Source: Candidatus Daviesbacteria bacterium (GTDB taxonomy: Bacteria; Patescibacteriota; Microgenomatia; Daviesbacterales; UBA10151). From it: a DNA stretch of 36,038 bases. The notes under the pieces were generated by a model. That model did not search any database, was not told the DNA's origin, and saw nothing but the letters and a program-made list of their open reading frames with translations. The position numbers were made by a program, and so were the translations under genes. The stretch's first letter is position 1; each line of letters begins with the position of its first letter. The stretch covers positions 1 through 36,038 of the forward strand of contig JACPEX010000022.1 of the NCBI GenBank assembly GCA_016183265.1, read 5' to 3'. Below, piece after piece: positions 410 to 28,009 of this stretch.

Positions 410-2305
410 ATGGCAAAGATTGTGGGAATTGATTTAGGGACAACTAATAGTGCAGTAGCAGTGATGGAGGGCGGAAAGCCCAAAGTCATTCACAGCGCTG
501 AAGGAGAAAACATTATCCCTTCGGTGGTTAACCCGATTAAAAACATTGTGGGGAGAGTGGCCAAAAGACAGGCAATTGTTAACCCCAAAGAAACTATTTT
601 TTCCATTAAAAGATTAATGGGCCGCAAATTCAAGGACCCGGAAGTTCAGAGGGATATTAAGTGGCTTCCCTACACTATTAAAGAAGGCCGGGAAGGCATG
701 GCGGTGGTGGAAGTAGAAGGCCATGACTATACCCCGCAGGAAATTTCTGCCCAGATTTTACAAAAGATCAAAGCTGATGCCGAATCCTACTTGGGTGAAA
801 AAGTCACCGATGCTGTTATTACTGTTCCCGCATATTTCGATGATGCCCAAAGGCAGGCTACCAAACAAGCCGGAGAAATTGCCGGGTTAAATGTCCAAAG
901 GATTATTAATGAGCCGACTGCCGCAGCGCTAGCTTATGGCTTGGATAAATCCCATGCCCATACCATTGCTGTTTACGACTTAGGCGGAGGCACTTTTGAT
1001 ATTTCTGTTTTGGAATTAGGTGACGGAGTAATCGAGGTTAAATCTACCAACGGTGATACTCACTTGGGTGGGGATGATTTTGACCAGGTAATTTTGGACT
1101 GGCTGGCAGAAGAATTTAAAAAAGAACAAGGGATTGACCTAAAGGGTGACAGGCAGGCTTTGCAGAGGCTCCGTGATGCAGCTGAAAAAGCTAAAATCGA
1201 GTTGTCTTCGACCCAGGAAGCCTCAATTTCTATTCCGTTTGTGACGGCTGATTCTTCCGGCCCCAAGCATTTGGAGATGAAGCTGTCGCGGGCCAAACTT
1301 GAAGCGATGGTTAAACCATTGATTGATAAAACCTTTGAGGCGGTAAAAGCAGCCATCAAAGATGCTAAGCTGGAGGCATCTAAAATAGATGAGGTGGTTT
1401 TGGTTGGAGGCATGACCAGGATGCCCTCGGTACAAAAAGCGGTTCAGGACTTCTTTGGTAAAGAGCCTCATAAAGGCATTAACCCGGATGAGGTGGTGGC
1501 AGTGGGTGCAGCCATTCAGGGCGGAGTCTTGGGCGGGGAAGTCAAAGACGTGCTTTTGTTAGATGTGACTCCCTTAACTTTGGGTATAGAAACTTTGGGC
1601 GGAGTCAGAACTCCCCTTATTTCCAGAAATACCACGATTCCTACTTCAAAAAGTGAGACTTTTTCAACAGCAGCTGATAACCAGCCGGCTGTGGAGATTA
1701 ATGTTTTGCAGGGCGAGCGGGAAATGGCAGCAGATAATAAAACCCTGGGGAAATTTACTCTCGACGGGATTCCGCCGGCTCCCCGCGGCGTGCCGCAAAT
1801 TGAGGTGACTTTTGATATTGATGCCAACGGCATTTTAAATGTGACAGCGCACGATAAAGCCACCGGCAAAAAGCAAAATATCACTATCACCGGTTCAACA
1901 GGCCTTTCCAAAGAAGAAGTGGAAAAGATGACTAAAGAGGCTGAAGCCCATGCGGATGAAGATAAAAAGAGGAAGGAAGGGATTGAGATTAAAAATCAGG
2001 CAGATACGCTGGTTTATACGGCAGAAAAGTCTTTGAAAGATGCCGGGGATAAAGTATCGGCTGAGGTAAGGACTGATGTTGAACAAAAATTAAATGATCT
2101 GAAGGGTGTTATCCAAACAGCATCACCGGAAGATTTAAAGCCCAAAATGGAAGCATTGTCAGAATCACTGCAAAAAATAGGCGAGGCAATGTACAAAGAA
2201 CAGCCGTCAGCTGACAGCTCTCAGCCTTCAGCCACGCAGGAAGAACCAAAGAAAGAAGAGGCGGTAGAGGGAGAAGTGGTTGAAGAAAATGGAAAGAAAG
2301 AATAA
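410..2305 (+). CDS. dnaK: Molecular chaperone DnaK (Hsp70)
   Basis: ATP-dependent Hsp70 chaperone of 631 aa, the normal length. The nucleotide-binding domain shows the phosphate-1 motif DLGTTNS (residues 8-14), the [11 protein letters not shown] segment, the phosphate-2 motif [10 protein letters not shown] (near 190) and the adenosine motif VGGMTRMP (near 330). The substrate-binding domain follows with [17 protein letters not shown] and INVLQGERE, then the helical lid and a charged, probably disordered tail. The TTNSAV form, without the extra insert seen in E. coli DnaK, resembles Gram-positive DnaK. AAGGAG at 393-398 is a good ribosome-binding site. The tail (residues about 597-608) includes a TCAGC-type repeat containing the palindrome GTCAGCTGAC. 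It acts with the GrpE and DnaJ encoded on either side. Confidence 0.98.
2201..2232 (+). repeat. CAGC-rich short repeat in the dnaK C-terminal tail
   Basis: TCAGC recurs four times in 32 nt, with the perfect 10-nt palindrome GTCAGCTGAC at 2206-2215. It is translated as a Ser/Ala/Pro/Gln stretch in the variable tail after the DnaK lid. Confidence 0.5.
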
Positions 2306-2308
2306 TGG

Positions 2309-3253
2309 ATGGCGACAAAAAGAGATTATTACGAAATTTTAGGTGTTTCTAAGAGTGCCTCTGATGCAGATATTAAATCAGCCTACCGCAAATTGGCTAG
2401 GCAGCACCATCCTGATATAGATAAATCAGCAGGGGCTGATGTGAGGTTTAAAGAAATAGGAGAAGCCTATCAGGTTTTATCGGATCCGCAGAAGAAACAG
2501 GCTTATGATCAATTTGGTCACGCTGCTTTTGACCCTTCGACTCCCTTCGGTCGCTCAGGGCAAGCAGGTGGTGGATTTAATCCTTTTGGTGGCGGTGGAC
2601 ACTGGCAAACATATTCTAATGCCCAGTTTGATTTTGGCGGATTTGAAGATCCCTTTGAATTGTTTGAACAAATTTTTGGCGGCGGTTCCCCTTTTGGACA
2701 AGTCTTTAGAAGGCGCCCGACTTACCAATTAAATTTATCCTTTGATGAGGCAATTCATGGGGAGACTAAAGAGGTGGAAGTAGAATCAAGAAATGCCCAT
2801 GGGCAACTGCAAAGAAAAAGGATGAAAATTAAGGTGCCGGCCGGGGTAGATAACGGCACTAAAATGAGGTTTGGTCCGCCAGATGGCGGATTGGATATTG
2901 TGTTTAATGTCGGAAGAAGCGCCGAGTTTTTAAGGGAAGGGGCAGATATTTTCTCGGAAATTACTGTCAATATTCCGCAGTTGGTTTTAGGGGACATATT
3001 TGAGGTGGATACTACCCAAGGTAGGGTAAAAGTGAAAGTGCCCCACGGCACCCAACCCGGGTCTCTGGTCAAACTAAAAGGTAAAGGCGCTCCCCGTTTA
3101 AATGACGGCTCGCCTCGCTTCGCGGGCGGAGCGGGCTACGGAGACCACTATGTCAGGGTAAATCTGGATGTTCCCCAAAACCCCTCAAAACAGGAGAAAC
3201 AGCTTTATGAAGAATTAAAAAACCTCTCTGCCAAGAAAAAAGGCTGGTTTTAA
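2309..3253 (+). CDS. dnaJ: DnaJ/CbpA-type J-domain co-chaperone, no zinc finger
   Basis: Hsp40 co-chaperone that stimulates DnaK ATPase and delivers substrates. The J domain (residues 1-70) has the HPD motif at 34-36 and ends in [11 protein letters not shown] Gly/Phe-rich linker follows (about 72-130), then the C-terminal beta-sandwich domains ([46 protein letters not shown]). No CxxCxGxG repeats are present, so it is a class B (CbpA-like) protein of 314 aa rather than a classical 370-380 aa DnaJ. It starts 3 nt after dnaK. Two palindromic elements are translated inside it: [11 protein letters not shown] in the Gly/Phe linker, and a G/C-rich one around [12 protein letters not shown] in the C-terminal domain. 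Confidence 0.95.
2530..2565 (+). repeat. In-frame palindromic element (DPST..SGQ type) in dnaJ
   Basis: Ends with the same borders as the copy in pnp at 13389-13414: TGACCCTTCGAC on the left and GCTCAGGGCAAGCA on the right. The middle is longer here (TCCCTTCGGTC), giving imperfect dyad symmetry. It is read in frame as [12 protein letters not shown] in the flexible Gly/Phe linker. Confidence 0.7.
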
Positions 3254-3254
3254 T

Positions 3255-4943
3255 TTAGAATAATCCGACAATTTGGCCGTTGTCATCAAGGTCTACTTTT
3301 TCACCGGCCGGAATTGACGGTAGTCCGGGCATGGTCCGCATTTCGCCCAGTAATGGATACAAAAATCCGGCGCCGGCAGAAAGTCTGACATCCCGGATCG
3401 GCACAGTAAAGCCTTTAGGTCGACCCTTTAAAGTCTTGTCATGGGATAAAGATTCATGAGTTTTAGCCATACAAATAGGTAAATCGGCATAACCCATGTC
3501 CGTATACATCCTGATGGCTTTCTCTGCAGCAGGCAGATAGGTCACCCCGTCTGCCCCATAAATCTTTTTAGCAATGATCTCTATTTTTTCTTTAATGGGA
3601 ATATTCAGCGGATATAAAAATTTAAAATTACTCTTTTTCCCGCAAGCTTTCACAACTGCTTCCGCCATTTCTTTGCCGCCTGCCCCGCCTTTTTGGTGAA
3701 TATCAGAAGTGACTGACGATTCTGCTCCGGCTGCAAGAGACAAATCTTTGACGAGTCTAATTTCAGCATCAGTATCAGTGCTAAAGCGGTTAATGGCCAC
3801 TACAACCGGTATGCCAAATATCCGCATATTTTCAATTTGTTTGGCCAAATTTTCTACCCCTTCTTTAACTGCTTGCAAATTTTCTTCAGTTAGTCCTGGA
3901 TCCAAAGGCTTGCCAGCCACTACCTTAAAGCGGCCGCTATGCATTTTTAAAGCCCGGATGGTGGCCACAATCACTGCAGCATCAGGTTTTAACCCGCTGA
4001 CCCGGCATTTAATATTCATAAACTTTTCTGCCCCCAAATCAGCCCCAAAACCGCTTTCTGTGACTACATAATCAGCCAATTTTAAGGCAATGGTATCGGA
4101 TAAAATAGAGTTGTTGCCATGGGCAATGTTGGCAAACGGGCCGCAATGGACAAAAGCCGGAGTATTTTCCAGTGTCTGCATTAAATTCGGTTTGATAGCA
4201 TCTTTCAAAAGTACGGTCATGGCTCCGGCTACTTTTAAATCTTCGGCAGTGATAGGCTTGCCGTCATAGGTTGTGCCGATAACTATTTTACCCAGGCGTT
4301 TTCGTAAATCCTTTAAGCTAGTTGTTAAAGCCAAAATGGCCATCACTTCTGAGGCTACTGTAATGTCGAATCCGGTTTCCCGGGGGATGCCGTCTTTACC
4401 TAAACCAATAATGATGTTTCTTAAAGCCCGATCACTTACATCAACTACCCGACGGAAAGTGACTGTTTGGGGATTAATCCCTAATTTATTTTCATGAAAA
4501 ATATGATTATCAATGAAAGCCGCCAAAAGATTATGAGCAAGCCCGATCGCATGTACGTCCCCTGTCAGGTGTAAATTAAAATCCTCCATGGGGATAATTT
4601 GCGAATATCCGCCGCCGGCTGCGCCGCCTTTAATGCCAAAGACAGGACCAAGTGATGGTTGTCTGATGCAGATAATGGCTTTTTTGCCGATTTTGGAAAG
4701 CGCTTGTCCCAAGCCGACGGTAGTCGTGGTTTTACCTTCCCCTAAAGGGGTGGGGGTAATGGCAGTTACATCAATATACTTGCCGTTAGGCCGATTTTTT
4801 AACCTTTTTAAAGTATCTAAAGAAACTTTGGCTTTATAATTGCCATATAATTCAATCTCCTCTTCTTTTAAGCCAATTTCTGAGGCAATCTTAGAAATTG
4901 GCTTTAATTTGGCTGCTTGGGCGATTTTTAGATCACTTAACAT
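3255..4943 (-). CDS. fhs: Formate--tetrahydrofolate ligase
   Basis: Makes 10-formyl-tetrahydrofolate from formate, THF and ATP, feeding one-carbon units to purine and formyl-Met-tRNA synthesis. It is 562 aa from the chosen start, close to the usual length of about 556. Visible family features are the nucleotide-binding loop [13 protein letters not shown] (residues 63-75), [37 protein letters not shown] and EKFMNIKCR. The reading frame extends 20 codons further upstream, but those codons overlap the upstream gene. [16 protein letters not shown] matches the family N-terminus, so the ATG at 4943 is preferred, although no Shine-Dalgarno is visible. It is convergent with dnaJ, with stops 1 nt apart. 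No folD or other folate gene is adjacent. Confidence 0.96.
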
Positions 4944-21164: not shown

Positions 21165-21803
21165 ATGAGAACAGTTGGACAAGTTTTAAAAGAAGAAAGA
21201 GAAAAAAAAATTTATACCCTGGATGAAATTGAAAAAGCTACCAAAATCCGTAAGGAATTGCTGGAGGCTTTAGAAGCAGGGCAATATCTTAAACTTCCCC
21301 CACCTACTTTTGTGCAGGGGTTTATCAAAAATTATGGCAAGTTTTTGGGGTTAAATACGGAAAAACTTTTGGCAATTTTCAGAAGGGAATTTTCTGAAAA
21401 AGTGCACCCCCCTAGGATTCTAGACTCTTTTACTAACCCAGTTGATAAAAAAGGATTTAGGATGACTCCGGCCAGGGCTTTAGGCAGCTTAATTTTAGGA
21501 TTAATTATTATCTTCTTTGTCTACCTTTGGATTGAGTATAGGTTCTTAGTGGGAGGACCCTTTCTAGAAGTTTCGCAACCTGTTAATCAATATAATGCTA
21601 CTTCTTCCGCAATCGAAGTGATAGGGAGGACTGATCCGGAAGCAAAAGTTAGTATTAATAATCAAGAAATCGGGGTAGATGTGACCGGCAAATTCTCCCA
21701 AGAAATTAAGCTGTCTGGTAATATTAATACAATTGAAATTAGAGCCATCTCAAAAAATGGCAAGATGACCAAGGTTGAAAGAACAGTTTTCCTCAAGATA
21801 TGA
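21165..21803 (+). CDS. rodZ: RodZ-like cell-shape protein (HTH, membrane segment, beta domain)
   Basis: A 212-aa protein. An N-terminal Cro/RodZ-type helix-turn-helix (residues 1-75: GQVLKEEREKKIYTLDEIEK, PPPTFVQGFIKNYGKFLGL) is followed by a linker, one transmembrane helix (about 105-124) and an outside beta domain (VIGRTDPEAKVSINNQEIGV in part). In RodZ the HTH binds MreB in the cytoplasm and helps elongate rod cells. No mreB is in this window, so RodZ is the best name for the domain order and a direct MreB link is inferred. The outer domain looks like an Ig-type fold seen in many CPR surface proteins. Confidence 0.85.
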   Translation: MRTVGQVLKEEREKKIYTLDEIEKATKIRKELLEALEAGQYLKLPPPTFVQGFIKNYGKFLGLNTEKLLAIFRREFSEKVHPPRILDSFTNPVDKKGFRMTPARALGSLILGLIIIFFVYLWIEYRFLVGGPFLEVSQPVNQYNATSSAIEVIGRTDPEAKVSINNQEIGVDVTGKFSQEIKLSGNINTIEIRAISKNGKMTKVERTVFLKI

Positions 21804-22190: not shown

Positions 22191-23852
22191 ATGGATTCCA
22201 AACAAATTAGAGAGAAATATATAAAGTTTTTTGTTGAGCGGGGGCATAAGGTGATTGCGGCGGCGAAGCTTGTGCCGGAGAATGATTCGTCAACACTTTT
22301 TACCTCTTCCGGTATGCAGCCATTAGTCCCCTATCTTTTGGGCCAAGCTCACCCAAGCGGGAAAAGATTAGTTGATAGTCAACCCAGCTTTAGGGCGGAA
22401 GACATAGAAGAAGTTGGGGATAGCCGGCATACCACCTATTTTGAAATGTTAGGCAACTGGTCACTTGGCGACTACTTTAAAAAAGAACAACTGCCTTGGA
22501 TCTGGGAATTCTTAACTCAAGAATTAAAATTACCTAAAGAAAAATTATATGTAACTGTTTTTGAAGGCGGAAATGGAGTCCCGAAAGATATAGAATCTTT
22601 TGAGATCTGGAAAAGTTTGGGGGTTTTGGAGGAGCATATTCTCTTTCATGGAGTTTCTGAAAATTGGTGGTCCAGATCGGGTGCCCCCGACAAGATGCCG
22701 GCAGGGGAAATTGGAGGTCCTGATTCTGAGGTCTTCTATGATTTTGGCAACAATAATTTATTGGAAATCGGCAACTCTGTTTTTATTGAGTACCAAAAGC
22801 AGGATGATGGATCTTTAAAAGAATTAGCCCAAAAAAATGTGGATTTTGGAGGGGGGCTGGAAAGGATAACTGCGGCAGTAGTTAGTTCTCCAGATGTTTT
22901 CCAGACTGATATTTATGAACCGTTACTTAAAAAAATTGAGGAAGTTACAGGAGTAAAATATGCCGACGGTAAAGATAAAATGCAGGTTATTGCAGATCAT
23001 TTGAGAGCTGCTGAGGCTTTGATTGCCGATGGAGTAATTCCTTCAAATAAGTTGCAAGGTTATGTCTTAAGAAGACTTCTCCGACGTTCTGCTGTAAAGT
23101 TGCATTTACTGAATCCCAAGGCTGATTTAAGTTCAATCGCATCTGAGAAAATAGTTAAAGACGAGATAGAAAAGTTCGGTAAAACATTGGATCGCGGACT
23201 TAAAGAAATTGAAAAAATAAACCAAATTGACGGGAAAGCGGCTTTTGATCTGTACCAGACTTTTGGGTTTCCTTATGAAGTTACAGAAGAATTGTTCAGG
23301 CAAAAGGGGCAGGAAATTAATAGGGAGCAATTTAGAGAGGAATTTGAAAAACACAAAGAGCTTTCCCGGACTGCATCTTCAGGCATGTTCAAAGGCGGGT
23401 TGGCCGACCAATCTGAAATTGTTACCAAATACCATACTGCCACCCATCTGTTGCATCAGGCTTTGCGGGATGTTTTGGGGTCGCAGGTTTTTCAAAAAGG
23501 GTCTAATATTACCTCAGAGCGCTTAAGGTTTGATTTTTCCTTTGATCGGAAAATGACTGATGAAGAGATTAAGCAAGTAGAAGATCTTGTTAATAAAAAA
23601 ATAGCAGAAGATTTAAAAGTCGAGCGGAAAATAGTTTCTTTAGAAGAGGCAAAAAAAATGGGAGCAATCGGTCTTTTTTATGAAAAATACAAGGATAAAG
23701 TAATGGTTTATGCAATCGGTAATTACTCTAAAGAAATTTGCGGTGGACCGCATGTTAGCCGTACAGGTGTTATTGGCAGGATTAAAATTACTAAAGAAGA
23801 GGCTATCTCATCAGGGATCCGTAGAATTAGGGCGCAAATTGTATTAAAATAA
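22191..23852 (+). CDS. alaS: Alanyl-tRNA synthetase, compact form
   Basis: Charges tRNA-Ala; 553 aa against about 875 in E. coli. The class II catalytic domain is complete: LFTSSGMQPLVPYLLG, the motif-2 region SQPSFRAEDIEEVGDSRHTT with YFEMLGNWSLGDYF after it, and motif 3 GGGLERI. The tRNA-recognition domain follows (LRRLLRRSAV, then DLYQTFGFPYEVTEELF). The editing core is present with HTATH (415-419) and C517/H521 in ICGGPH. The usual beta-barrel before HTATH is reduced to a short linker (MFKGGLADQSE) and the C-terminal C-Ala domain is missing; the frame stops 5 nt before the next gene. The short form appears intact, not a pseudogene. Confidence 0.96.
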   Translation: MDSKQIREKYIKFFVERGHKVIAAAKLVPENDSSTLFTSSGMQPLVPYLLGQAHPSGKRLVDSQPSFRAEDIEEVGDSRHTTYFEMLGNWSLGDYFKKEQLPWIWEFLTQELKLPKEKLYVTVFEGGNGVPKDIESFEIWKSLGVLEEHILFHGVSENWWSRSGAPDKMPAGEIGGPDSEVFYDFGNNNLLEIGNSVFIEYQKQDDGSLKELAQKNVDFGGGLERITAAVVSSPDVFQTDIYEPLLKKIEEVTGVKYADGKDKMQVIADHLRAAEALIADGVIPSNKLQGYVLRRLLRRSAVKLHLLNPKADLSSIASEKIVKDEIEKFGKTLDRGLKEIEKINQIDGKAAFDLYQTFGFPYEVTEELFRQKGQEINREQFREEFEKHKELSRTASSGMFKGGLADQSEIVTKYHTATHLLHQALRDVLGSQVFQKGSNITSERLRFDFSFDRKMTDEEIKQVEDLVNKKIAEDLKVERKIVSLEEAKKMGAIGLFYEKYKDKVMVYAIGNYSKEICGGPHVSRTGVIGRIKITKEEAISSGIRRIRAQIVLK

Positions 23853-23857
23853 TTTGT

Positions 23858-26032
23858 ATGAGCTTCCTTAAAAATTTAACTGCCTTTTTACCCTTTCGGA
23901 AAAAGGAAGAACAATTAGAATATTTTTTTGCAGTAAATATTGGCGTAGAGAAAATCACAGCAGCGCTTTGGACTATAGAAAATAAAGACTTAAAAATTTT
24001 AGATATAACCACGGAAGATTATTCGTTAAACGATGAAATTACTACTGTTGTAGATAAACTTTTGGATCAAGTTTTGGGTTTGAAAGAAATTGAGCCACAA
24101 AAAATTCTTTTTGGCGTGCCTGACTCTTGGATTCTGGATGATAATTTAAAAGATGAATATTTAAAAATATTGCGCAATTTAGTTAAGGAATTGGAACTTA
24201 CTCCGATGGCTTATGTGGCTTCAAGTCATGCCTTAGTCCACTTTCTAGAAAAGCAGGGAGGTATTCCTCCTACTGCGATACTAATTGGTTTTGAGAAAAT
24301 GCATATAACAGTAACAGTAGTAAGGGCAGGCAAGATTGATGGAGTGAAAGTTATCAAGCGCGGAGAAAATTCTGGTTCAGACATAGAAAAAACCTTGTTG
24401 ACATTTACTGATGTTGAAACTTTGCCTTCTAAAATTTTAATTTATGGTAAGCAAACAACTGAACAAAAATCCCAGTTACTATCCTTTTCTTGGATGACTA
24501 AACTTTCTTTCCTGCATTTTCCTAAAATAGAGACTTTAGATGATGATTTGGAAATTAGGAGTGTGTGTTTAGCAGGAGGATCAGAAATAAATAGCAATGT
24601 AGTGCTTGCTGATCATCCGATGAAAAAACAGGCAGAGCGGATAAGTATTTTGGAGAGTTCAGACAGCTCAGAAGAAAAGCTAGAGGAGCAGGAAGTCTCT
24701 GAGGCTCCTGTTGAAAAAGCCGACCTTGGTTTTGTAGTGGGCGATATTGAAGAGCAAGCAAAACCGGAAGAGGCTACGTTAGCTACTCCTGAGGAACATA
24801 ATTTAGAAATTGATGATTTTGAAACTGATGTTGCGTCTCCTGCTGAATTGTCAAAAGAAAAACTCGGCAAAAAATTTAACCCTAAAAGATTTTTGCTTAA
24901 AGGTAATTTTACAACTCTGGTTATTTTATTTGGAATCATTGCCGGACTAATTTTGTTTGCTGGTGCTTATGCCTTTTTGCCTAAGGCACAAATTAAAGTA
25001 TTTGTTGAGCCAAAGGTTTTGGAAAAAGATGCAGAAGTGATAGCTGATCCCTCCATAAAAACTGTTGATGAGAATGCCAAAATTATTCCTGGCCAAATTG
25101 TAGAAGTAGAAGTGTCTGGTACCGCGAAGGATAACGCTACAGGCAAAAAACAGATAGGTGATCCAGCTAAAGGGACAGTGGTAATTAGAAATAAGACAGA
25201 TGGGGCGATTATTTTATCAAAAGGTACTACTCTGACAGGCAATAATCAAAAATTCACTCTGGATATGTCAGTTACTATTGCGTCCCGTTCGGCGGATGAT
25301 GGAACCTGGGGTAAGGCAAATGGTATAGTAACTGCATTTAGTATTGGTGCTGATGGAAATATTTCTTCAGGGACAGATGTGGCAGTATCCAGTTACACAG
25401 CAGACAAGATCGTGGCCAAGTCTGAAGGCAATTTCTCAGGCGGCACATCAAAGGATGTAAATGTGATATCAAATGATGACACTCAAAGGTTGTTGGCTAA
25501 ATTATCCTCAGATTTAAGGCAGCAAGCACAACAAAAATTACAAGAAAAATATCCTAACAAGAAACTATTACAAGAGGCTTTATTGGAAAATATAATCAAG
25601 AAAAATTATAACAAAAATATTAATGATCAGGCTGGTGAATTTTCCTTAACTATGACTGCTAATTATAAAGGGACTGCTTTTGATGATGCAGATCTTCGGT
25701 TAATTGTTTCTAAACTGGTGACTACCCAAGTACCTGATGGTTTCCGACTTGACCTGTCTGATACTGAAACCCAAGCTGATGTTTCCAAACTAGAAAAGAA
25801 TGGCAAGTTAATATTTTTAGCAAAATTTAAAGCCAAATTGATGCCAAAGATTGATACTGCTAAGATAATAGATCAAATTAAATTCAAAACTCCTATGGAG
25901 GCAATGAATCTTTTGAAGGGAATGGATAATGTGTTAGGTTCAGAAATTAATATCACCCCGCGTTTACCAAAACCGTTAGAACGTTTACCCTTTTTCGGGA
26001 AAAATATCAAAGTTGAAGTAGGGTTGAAATAA
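23858..26032 (+). CDS. Actin-like (PilM-like) ATPase, membrane and baseplate-J-like fusion protein
   Basis: A 724-aa multi-domain protein. Residues about 20-245 look like an actin/PilM-type ATPase fold: FFAVNIGVEKITAALW (phosphate-1 position), AILIGFEKMHITVTVVRAGK (phosphate-2 position), VCLAGGSEINSNV (adenosine position). The usual acidic residues are mostly changed (NIG for DIG), so ATP binding is uncertain. Residues 246-335 form an acidic linker. One transmembrane helix lies at about 350-370 (LVILFGIIAGLILFAGAYAF). The outside part (372-724) has the SGTAKDNATGKKQIGDPAKG and VVIRNKTDGAIILSKGTTLT pattern that in CPR proteins is often labelled baseplate J-like. It is 5 nt after alaS and the stop shares a base with the sortase start, so it is probably coupled to it. 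A surface-assembly role is inferred. Confidence 0.75.
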   Translation: MSFLKNLTAFLPFRKKEEQLEYFFAVNIGVEKITAALWTIENKDLKILDITTEDYSLNDEITTVVDKLLDQVLGLKEIEPQKILFGVPDSWILDDNLKDEYLKILRNLVKELELTPMAYVASSHALVHFLEKQGGIPPTAILIGFEKMHITVTVVRAGKIDGVKVIKRGENSGSDIEKTLLTFTDVETLPSKILIYGKQTTEQKSQLLSFSWMTKLSFLHFPKIETLDDDLEIRSVCLAGGSEINSNVVLADHPMKKQAERISILESSDSSEEKLEEQEVSEAPVEKADLGFVVGDIEEQAKPEEATLATPEEHNLEIDDFETDVASPAELSKEKLGKKFNPKRFLLKGNFTTLVILFGIIAGLILFAGAYAFLPKAQIKVFVEPKVLEKDAEVIADPSIKTVDENAKIIPGQIVEVEVSGTAKDNATGKKQIGDPAKGTVVIRNKTDGAIILSKGTTLTGNNQKFTLDMSVTIASRSADDGTWGKANGIVTAFSIGADGNISSGTDVAVSSYTADKIVAKSEGNFSGGTSKDVNVISNDDTQRLLAKLSSDLRQQAQQKLQEKYPNKKLLQEALLENIIKKNYNKNINDQAGEFSLTMTANYKGTAFDDADLRLIVSKLVTTQVPDGFRLDLSDTETQADVSKLEKNGKLIFLAKFKAKLMPKIDTAKIIDQIKFKTPMEAMNLLKGMDNVLGSEINITPRLPKPLERLPFFGKNIKVEVGLK

Positions 26033-26670
26033 TGGTCGTTTCCAAGCTTATACCAATTGGGTTTTTAGCAATCGGAATTTTCATCCTGATGCAGGTGATT
26101 TTACCAATAGTCTCATTTCAAGTTTGGTCACTTGGACAAAAATACCAAAATCAAATTCTAATCAGTCCGAAAAAATCAAATGGACAAATTTTAGGAATTT
26201 CGGTTCAAAGCAAGGATAGCTTTCCGGCCTTTGTTTCTTCCTTAAAACGGGAATCCAAGCCTAATTATGATCAATTTAATTTATCTATTCCCAGACTTAA
26301 GATGGAAAGCGGTTCTGTTCTTGTTGACAGTAATGATTTAGATAAAAGTATGGTTCATCTGCCCGGATCAGCGCTGCCGGGCGAGAAAGGCAATGTATTT
26401 ATTTCCGGTCATTCTGCATTCGGTAGATTTATTCCAGGTCAAAATGCTCCTTTTGCTAAACTTTTGGATTTAAAGAAAAATGACGAAATTATTGTCGAAG
26501 CAGGGGGTAGTAAATTTATCTATAAGGTAGTAGGAATAAAAGTAGTTAATCCGAGTGATTTATCTGTGATCCTTCCGCCGGATGAGCAAGGAAGGTATAT
26601 CTCTTTGATGACTTGTGTGCCACCCGGATTAAATCTTAAAAGGCTTGTTGTTTTAGGGAAGATGGTATAA
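26032..26670 (+). CDS. Sortase family transpeptidase
   Basis: A 212-aa membrane-bound cysteine transpeptidase. One N-terminal transmembrane helix (about 6-28), then the sortase beta barrel with the catalytic His in FISGHSAFGR (H127), the catalytic Cys in SLMTCVPPG (C195) and Arg in LNLKRLVV (R204). All three active-site residues are present. The single N-terminal anchor and TC-x-P pattern resemble class D/E sortases. The start overlaps the stop of the preceding fusion protein by one base (TAATG). No LPxTG-like sorting signal is seen in the window, so the substrate is unknown; the preceding protein is the obvious first candidate for a partner. Confidence 0.92.
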   Translation: MVVSKLIPIGFLAIGIFILMQVILPIVSFQVWSLGQKYQNQILISPKKSNGQILGISVQSKDSFPAFVSSLKRESKPNYDQFNLSIPRLKMESGSVLVDSNDLDKSMVHLPGSALPGEKGNVFISGHSAFGRFIPGQNAPFAKLLDLKKNDEIIVEAGGSKFIYKVVGIKVVNPSDLSVILPPDEQGRYISLMTCVPPGLNLKRLVVLGKMV

Positions 26671-26678: not shown

Positions 26679-27056
26679 GTGAAATATCTAGGGATAGACT
26701 TCGGTTTAAAAAGGATCGGGCTAGCAATTTCAGAAGGTAAGTTTGCTTCTCCCTGGCAGATTATAGAAATTAAGAATTTTTCTGATGTGGTGGAAAAAAT
26801 TTCCAAAATCATCATGGAGGAAAATTTCCAAAAAATAGTAGTGGGTTTACCGGAGGGCAAGATGGAGAGAAATGTGACTGGATTTGTTAATGCTTTAAAA
26901 AAAAGAGGGTTTGAGGTGGAAACTGCTGATGAAACTTTGTCCAGTCAAAAAGCTTTAGAAGTTATGATTGAAAAAGGTATTCCGCAAAAAAAACGCCGTT
27001 TTCAAGACGATTACTCTGCAGCAGAAATTCTACAAAATTATTTAGATAAACAATGA
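26679..27056 (+). CDS. ruvX: RuvX/YqgF family Holliday-junction resolvase-like nuclease
   Basis: A 125-aa RNase H-fold protein linked to 16S rRNA 5'-end maturation and DNA recombination in other bacteria. It has YLGIDFGLKRIGLAIS (D7), IVVGLPEGKMERN with the expected Glu, VETADETLSSQKA, and DDYSAAEILQNYL with the last acidic residue near 110. The GTG start fits a leaderless mRNA. mltG follows with a 4-nt overlap (ATGA), the common ruvX-mltG pairing. Confidence 0.93.
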   Translation: MKYLGIDFGLKRIGLAISEGKFASPWQIIEIKNFSDVVEKISKIIMEENFQKIVVGLPEGKMERNVTGFVNALKKRGFEVETADETLSSQKALEVMIEKGIPQKKRRFQDDYSAAEILQNYLDKQ

Positions 27057-28009
27057 AGAAGCTTATAACCATTATAATCGTTATAATAATTATAATTTTT
27101 ATAGCTAATGGTTGGTGGAATAGCCAATTAGCCGGTGTCTCTTCAGACGAATCTACGAAAGTATTTGTAATCGCTAAAGGAGCTGGAGTTTCAGAAATTG
27201 CAAAGAATTTAAAAGAGGCAAATTTAATTAAGTCTGAACTAGTTTTTAAATTCTATGTTAAACAAAATAATTTAACTAATAAGCTTCAAGCTGGCTCATA
27301 TAAACTGTCTCCTGCTATGTCTACGCAGGAGATTTTAAAAGCTTTGCAATCGGGCAGCGAAGATCTTTGGATAACTTTGCCGGAAGGATGGCGGGTAGAG
27401 GAAATGGCAGAGGAGATAAATTCGAAATTCGAAATTCGAAATTCGAATTTTTTGGCGGCAGCCAAAGAAGGGTATATGTTCCCTGATACTTATCTTTTTC
27501 CAAAGGAAGCAACTGTAGGATATATTATAGATACTCTGAGAAAAACTTTTGATAGTCGCTTCGCTGATGAGCTGCGATCGAAAATCCGCTCCCAAGGATT
27601 GGCTGAAGATCAAGGTGTAATTTTGGCATCAATTGTGGAAAGGGAGGCCAGGTCTGATAAAGCTCGGGAAATGGTAGCTTCAATACTTTTAAAAAGATTT
27701 AAAATCGGTATGGCTTTAAATGCTGATGCCACAGTCCAGTATGCTTTGGGTTTTCAAAAAAGTGAAAATAGCTGGTGGAAAAGACATCTAAGTTTTGATG
27801 ATTTAAAGATTGACTCGCCATATAATACTTATACTCATGCCGGTTTACCCCCAAAGCCGATTAGCAATCCTGGACTGTCGTCGTTAAAAGCAGTGGCCAA
27901 TGCCGACTCAAGTATCCCGTATCTGTATTATTATCATGATTCTAAGGGTATTTCCCATTTTGCCAAAACTTTAGAAGAGCATAATCAAAATGTTGCCAAT
28001 TACCCTTGA
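27053..28009 (+). CDS. mltG: Endolytic transglycosylase MltG (YceG family)
   Basis: Cuts nascent peptidoglycan to end glycan chains; 318 aa. One N-terminal membrane helix (about 3-22), a LysM-like region (VFVIAKGAGVSEIAKNLKEA), then TLPEGWRVEEMAEEI and the catalytic domain with YMFPDTYLFPK, ASIVEREARSDK (catalytic Glu near 198), LNADATVQYALG, SPYNTYTHAGLPPKPISNPG and a YYHDSKGISHFAKTLEEHN end. Between EEI and the catalytic region a run of four 7-nt units is translated as NSKFEIRNSNF, an insertion not expected in the family. The start overlaps the ruvX stop. Confidence 0.95.
   Translation: MKKLITIIIVIIIIIFIANGWWNSQLAGVSSDESTKVFVIAKGAGVSEIAKNLKEANLIKSELVFKFYVKQNNLTNKLQAGSYKLSPAMSTQEILKALQSGSEDLWITLPEGWRVEEMAEEINSKFEIRNSNFLAAAKEGYMFPDTYLFPKEATVGYIIDTLRKTFDSRFADELRSKIRSQGLAEDQGVILASIVEREARSDKAREMVASILLKRFKIGMALNADATVQYALGFQKSENSWWKRHLSFDDLKIDSPYNTYTHAGLPPKPISNPGLSSLKAVANADSSIPYLYYYHDSKGISHFAKTLEEHNQNVANYP
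27421..27448 (+). repeat. Heptanucleotide tandem repeat in mltG
   Basis: Three TTCGAAA units and a final TTCGAAT, each with the palindrome TTCGAA at its core. The 7-nt period means successive copies are read in different frames; three copies give 21 nt and seven codons. The product (NSKFEIRNSNF) sits between two conserved MltG segments and the frame stays open. Confidence 0.85.

Follow-up and report, generated by a model that had tools for sequence, protein, structure and literature searches.

A question raised by the locus described here is why a cell would join an actin-like cytoplasmic half and a phage-like outside half in one protein and place a sortase gene directly behind it. The locus lies in a stretch of 36,038 nucleotides from Candidatus Daviesbacteria (hereafter the window), for which the original prediction was of a PilM/actin-like ATPase fused to a membrane helix and baseplate-J-like repeats and coupled to a sortase, perhaps as an undescribed system for attachment to hosts. 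Both open reading frames were found where that prediction placed them, sharing one base (Table 1). Our preferred interpretation, with a probability of roughly one half, is that the product may be a trans-membrane envelope scaffold analogous to GspL or to the PilM-PilN complex and provided, in the class of the window, with a dedicated sortase.

Anatomy of the fused protein

The longer reading frame encodes a single polypeptide that comprises an actin-fold domain, an acidic linker, one helix, and an outside domain. As a single sequence, this protein gives no meaningful match to Pfam, NCBIfam, or PHROGs, yet 133 of 138 relatives have homologues, most of which are single full-length chains. In an AlphaFold2 model built with 82 homologues, the pLDDT exceeds 90 for nearly all of residues 20-250 and 351-724, the linker is disordered at 256-349, and the helix occupies 351-373.

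Table 1. Features of the locus, with positions in the window.
Feature	Position	Strand	Remarks
RodZ-like protein (HTH_25 + Glucodextran_B)	21165..21803	+	conserved upstream
alaS	22191..23852	+	conserved upstream neighbour
Fused gene, 724 aa	23858..26032	+	pseudo-actin, linker, membrane helix, J-type outside domain
Reduced actin-fold (ASKHA) domain, residues 20-250	23915..24607	+	lacks phosphate-1/-2 motifs, 1C, 2B
Acidic cytoplasmic linker, residues 251-350	24608..24907	+	disordered, pLDDT about 40
GFVVGDI linear motif in linker, residues 291-297	24728..24748	+	conserved; candidate docking motif
Single membrane helix, residues 351-373	24908..24976	+	positive-inside; N in, C out
Outside domain, residues 374-724	24977..26029	+	AlphaFold2
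Baseplate-J-type beta barrel, about residues 430-530	25145..25447	+	profile and fold matches
Sortase, 212 aa	26032..26670	+	N-terminal membrane helix; catalytic H127, C195, R204; Pfam PF04203, E 4.6e-22
ruvX	26679..27056	+	conserved downstream neighbour
mltG (YceG-like lytic transglycosylase)	27053..28009	+	conserved downstream neighbour

The actin-like fold expected of the N-terminal half is borne out by Foldseek, which matched the AlphaFold2 model to actin-fold proteins in the PDB (Ppx/GppA, EutJ, YeaZ, PilM, and FtsA) and placed it in the actin-fold superfamily (ASKHA), with target-normalised TM scores of 0.54 for EutJ and 0.48 for PilM. The idea of an ATPase fared differently. Using simple patterns on the alignment, the phosphate-1 motif (P1, DxGTxxxK) was found to be kept in 25/31 outgroup actins versus 0/29 fused rows, the phosphate-2 motif (P2, DIGGGTT) in 20/31 versus 0/29, and the adenosine motif in 26/31 versus 9/29; the fused rows also lack the 1C and 2B inserts. 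Since both phosphate motifs are gone from all 29 fused rows, the label "ATPase" appears, on these sequence grounds, to be unsupported and is not retained.

Nor does the protein appear to be PilM. The window protein gives no match to FtsA (PF14450) and none to PilM (PF11104, PilM_2) at E values up to 1, and the unfused partner found elsewhere in the phylum (see below) scores better as FtsA than as PilM; of "PilM/actin-like", then, only the second term stands. These results bear on a reading in which the fused protein belongs to a type IV pilus or a type II-like secretion platform, where it would take the place of PilM and PilN. Its actin-fold domain does match PilM structures, and GspL has an identical order of parts. 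However, an intact PilM-PilN-PilO-pilin operon is present on another contig of the genome (C39, L204), PF11104 picks out other genes in this genome, including the PilM of that operon, rather than the fused one, and there are no pilus genes at the locus in the relatives examined. A pilus or secretion role is, therefore, already disfavoured and looks very improbable.

The J-like fold proposed for the outside is likewise confirmed by structure prediction. Modelled alone, the outside part has a mean pLDDT of 95.3, and Foldseek matches it to the baseplate J proteins of phi812, Mu, diffocin, and others, as well as to the barrel of GlxA, although the close superpositions span only about 100 residues. 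Profile matches of the barrel point the same way (diffocin CD1371, E 2.8e-6; GlxA, 2.1e-4; phage Mu gp47, 0.002). Of 61 members, 44 match the Pfam Baseplate_J model when the threshold is loose (E up to 0.1), the best of them at 3.9e-8; the window sequence alone gives no such match. Because the structural and profile matches are limited to one barrel of some 100 residues, the outside domain is, as judged from profiles and models, a single J barrel and then an alpha/beta part: the J-like domain of the original prediction is upheld and its repeats are not. Phage and plasmid records were searched as well and yielded no direct match by sequence.

The linker contains a GF-x(3,4)-D[VIL] motif in 62 of 82 cases versus 0.5% of shuffled linkers, a figure fitted to the same sequences because the pattern was relaxed after the alignment had been seen (the stricter first pattern matched 16/82). 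Of 47 unfused J proteins, 6 have a similar motif in the cytoplasmic tail. AlphaFold2 left the motif undocked on the actin domain, with a pLDDT of about 40. The cytoplasmic tail of PilN is a docking peptide for PilM and, by analogy, the GF motif may be a candidate docking peptide too.

The unfused pair and the history of the fusion

When 287 sampled genomes of Patescibacteria were searched by profile, 276 proved to have a J-type membrane gene. Outside the class of the window, it stands as a gene of its own, with a product of about 420-640 aa in the loci read. Of 40 outgroup loci, 31 have an FtsA-family actin gene immediately upstream of it, the usual order being alaS, actin, J, ruvX, mltG. The proposal that a normally separate membrane partner has here been fused is directly shown, because the unfused genes adjoin one another in the rest of the phylum. 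In the other 9 outgroup loci, no actin was recognised upstream of the J gene, whose product may need no such partner there.

Two further observations were made on the unfused loci. In several outgroup families (L145, L151, L153, and L161), the gene between alaS and J encodes not an actin but a protein of 267-389 aa, which in three of the four resembles, by eye, glucose-6-phosphate isomerase. The N-terminal 60-80 aa of the unfused J proteins (e.g., L139:4605-4850) form a conserved cytoplasmic domain (EITSVIDKIK...VNLRLL...IVTADKIGRNLA) that has no Pfam match and is not recognised in the fused form.

The four outgroup actins tested all exceed the FtsA cut-off of Pfam (53-64 bits versus 31.8; E 1e-14 to 1e-17). 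Most sampled genomes have a stronger FtsA match elsewhere, and the J-adjoining actin is, therefore, an extra paralogue. The genome of the window itself gives no SHS2_FTSA match; its assembly is 84% complete, and its FtsA may simply be absent from it.

Within the class, the actin and J genes are still separate in two families (L079, L087, L088, L216, L217, and L219), and L218 has a split J gene whose upstream neighbour is unrecognised by profile. In the three unfused in-class rows aligned, P1 and P2 are both missing (0/3 each), yet these rows still align over 1C; one in-class unfused actin partner gives an SHS2_FTSA match and keeps its 1C (SHS2) domain. The comparison suggests that the ATP motifs were lost first, with fusion and trimming following. 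In a tree of J domains, obtained by a quick search without bootstrap and with a root that is not firm, the fused rows form one clade (SH-aLRT 96) containing one long-branch outgroup row, and the unfused in-class rows form a separate clade (SH-aLRT 98). This tree fits a single fusion, which would mean that the actin-J fusion arose essentially once. The anatomy of the fused protein and this history are the parts of the account in which we have high confidence. The class-wide loss of the ATP motifs, whether before or with the fusion, offers a clean example of an actin turned into a passive scaffold.

Could the fused protein then be a divisome factor, that is, a second FtsA-like membrane tether that connects FtsZ or FtsK to the wall and docks via its GFxxxD motif or its actin core? 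The scores of the unfused partner above the FtsA cut-off, the SHS2_FTSA match in the in-class partner, and the ftsK and rodZ-like genes just upstream are in its favour. FtsA uses its 1C (SHS2) domain for divisome contacts, and it is this domain that the fused form has lost; moreover, the stronger, separate FtsA of most sampled genomes would leave only a paralogue for this task. A divisome role, hence, seems unlikely to us.

The sortase and its neighbourhood

The start codon of the sortase overlaps the stop codon of the fused gene by one base (TAA/ATG in TAATG). Its His/Cys/Arg triad is invariant in all 78 neighbouring sortases; the best class models are those for C and E, at 63 bits versus a cut-off of 160. 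In agreement with the expectation that the two genes are conserved as neighbours, 74 of the 82 fused loci with room for one have a sortase no more than 2.5 kb downstream, and all but three of these sortases (71) start within -41 to +45 bases. Among the exceptions, L049 and L075 are artefacts of start choice or of a contig end, and in L073, the sortase is about 3.7 kb away. In a sub-lineage of the window's own family (L023 and L025), a 494-aa reading frame replaces the sortase downstream of the fused gene. No sortase follows the J gene in any of the 40 outgroup loci or in the in-class L079, L087, and L088, and three other loci that seemed split with a sortase proved to contain fused genes broken by a contig end or by masked sequence. 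With both folds predicted and the gene pair kept together, the core of the original prediction stands.

One sortase family (fam000526) was reported to be near-ubiquitous in Microgenomates (PMC6744442); the sortase of the window, whose class is probably Microgenomates to judge from gene content and from that report, probably belongs to it, and the main text of that report does not mention the fused actin-J neighbour. The genome contains two further sortases. The second (L215, G000:C28:24500-30500, 2189-3520) is preceded by a gene for a penicillin-binding-like protein and directly followed by one for a 232-aa protein with a classic LPETG signal and a membrane tail, and the third (L214, G000:C27:13000-17000) lies upstream of a PEGA-like protein and mreB. 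A search of the genome with an LPxTG-type DNA pattern gave 40 matches versus 26 for the reversed pattern; when the 40 were checked for a C-terminal membrane tail, a single convincing protein was found, beside the other sortase on contig C28. Within the window, there is no sortase-signal protein of the LPxTG-type pattern tested.

In many members of the class, ftsK and rodZ lie upstream and mltG downstream of the fused gene. In the outgroup locus L139, mreB-mreC-mreD-pbp2-like genes directly follow mltG, and mreB is nearby in three more loci. The neighbourhood may nevertheless be uninformative as to function, because alaS-ruvX-mltG is an old housekeeping gene order.

An attachment or appendage system is the remaining alternative: the J-like outside domain would bind a host or build the base of a filament, with the sortase assisting. 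J barrels do build phage baseplates, a sortase is coupled to the fused gene, and cultivated Patescibacteria are episymbionts (PMC12206443, PMC11665869). However, a host receptor would be expected to be patchy or variable, and this gene is near-universal in the phylum and fixed in place among housekeeping genes for the cell wall and division; moreover, there is no pilin, fibre, or sortase-signal gene nearby, phage tail genes are missing from the window and from the neighbourhoods of the relatives, and the phage and plasmid records contain no sequence match. The near-universality of the J gene speaks for a core function in the envelope rather than one tied to particular hosts, and attachment to hosts, which had made the locus appear interesting, looks distinctly unlikely.

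A putative cytoplasm-to-wall coupler and its known counterparts

The envelope scaffold thus remains the preferred interpretation. It starts from what would be a single-origin fusion of an FtsA-family actin-like protein with a one-helix J-barrel membrane protein, a pair widespread in Patescibacteria. The product may act as a permanent coupler between cytoplasm and wall, as GspL or the PilM-PilN complex would: its pseudo-actin core would self-associate or, possibly through the GFxxxD motif, bind envelope machinery in the cytoplasm, its helix would span the membrane, its outside domain would assemble in the wall zone, and the co-translated sortase would anchor surface proteins there. Before fusion, the coupling would have been under the control of ATP binding by the separate actin partner, and it would have become constitutive afterwards. 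In a bolder version, which we offer only tentatively, the Patescibacteria would have in common an undescribed trans-envelope machine that consists of an FtsA-family actin and a J-like membrane protein; in one class, this machine would have become a single protein, free of nucleotide, by which a dedicated sortase is positioned. The result would be a CPR-specific envelope-assembly system.

The locus provides a testable candidate for cytoplasm-wall coupling in minimal cells; from the natural occurrence of separate and fused forms, it is predicted that an FtsA-like actin and a J-like membrane protein interact directly. In the literature searched, the coverage of which was partial, no description of the actin-J pair or fusion was found, even though the J-type gene is present in nearly all the genomes sampled. 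Within that literature, the claim that the system is undescribed holds for the pair, and the attachment role once attributed to it has no specific support.

Several known systems resemble the protein in part. With the baseplate J/gp47 proteins (phage Mu, phi812, diffocin CD1371), it shares a single homologous beta barrel, about 100 residues long; here, however, the barrel belongs to a membrane-anchored cellular protein without tail genes, and the rest of the outside domain matches poorly. The same barrel (Pfam PF21110) is found in GlxA of Streptomyces, where the PDB profile match lies, but the fused protein has no oxidase domain. The unfused outgroup partner is an FtsA-family actin with mostly intact ATP motifs, although it is distinct from the stronger FtsA match of the same genomes, and the fused form has neither the ATP motifs nor the 1C domain. 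Like PilM-PilN, the system pairs an actin-fold protein with a one-helix membrane partner that has a cytoplasmic tail, from adjacent genes when unfused; unlike it, the tail has no INLLP, the locus has alaS, sortase, ruvX, and mltG instead of pilN and pilO, the genome has its own PilM-PilN-PilO, and the unfused partner scores higher as FtsA. In GspL, PilM and PilN are joined in one chain (PMC4471445, PMC3815138). GspL differs in its outside domain, which is small and ferredoxin-like rather than a J-type barrel with an alpha/beta part, and no T2SS secretion genes surround the fused gene; the likeness is that a cytoplasmic atypical actin-fold domain, one membrane helix, and an outside domain are united in a single protein. 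The kind of machine is already known, and the combination of actin, J barrel, and sortase is, as far as could be checked, new.
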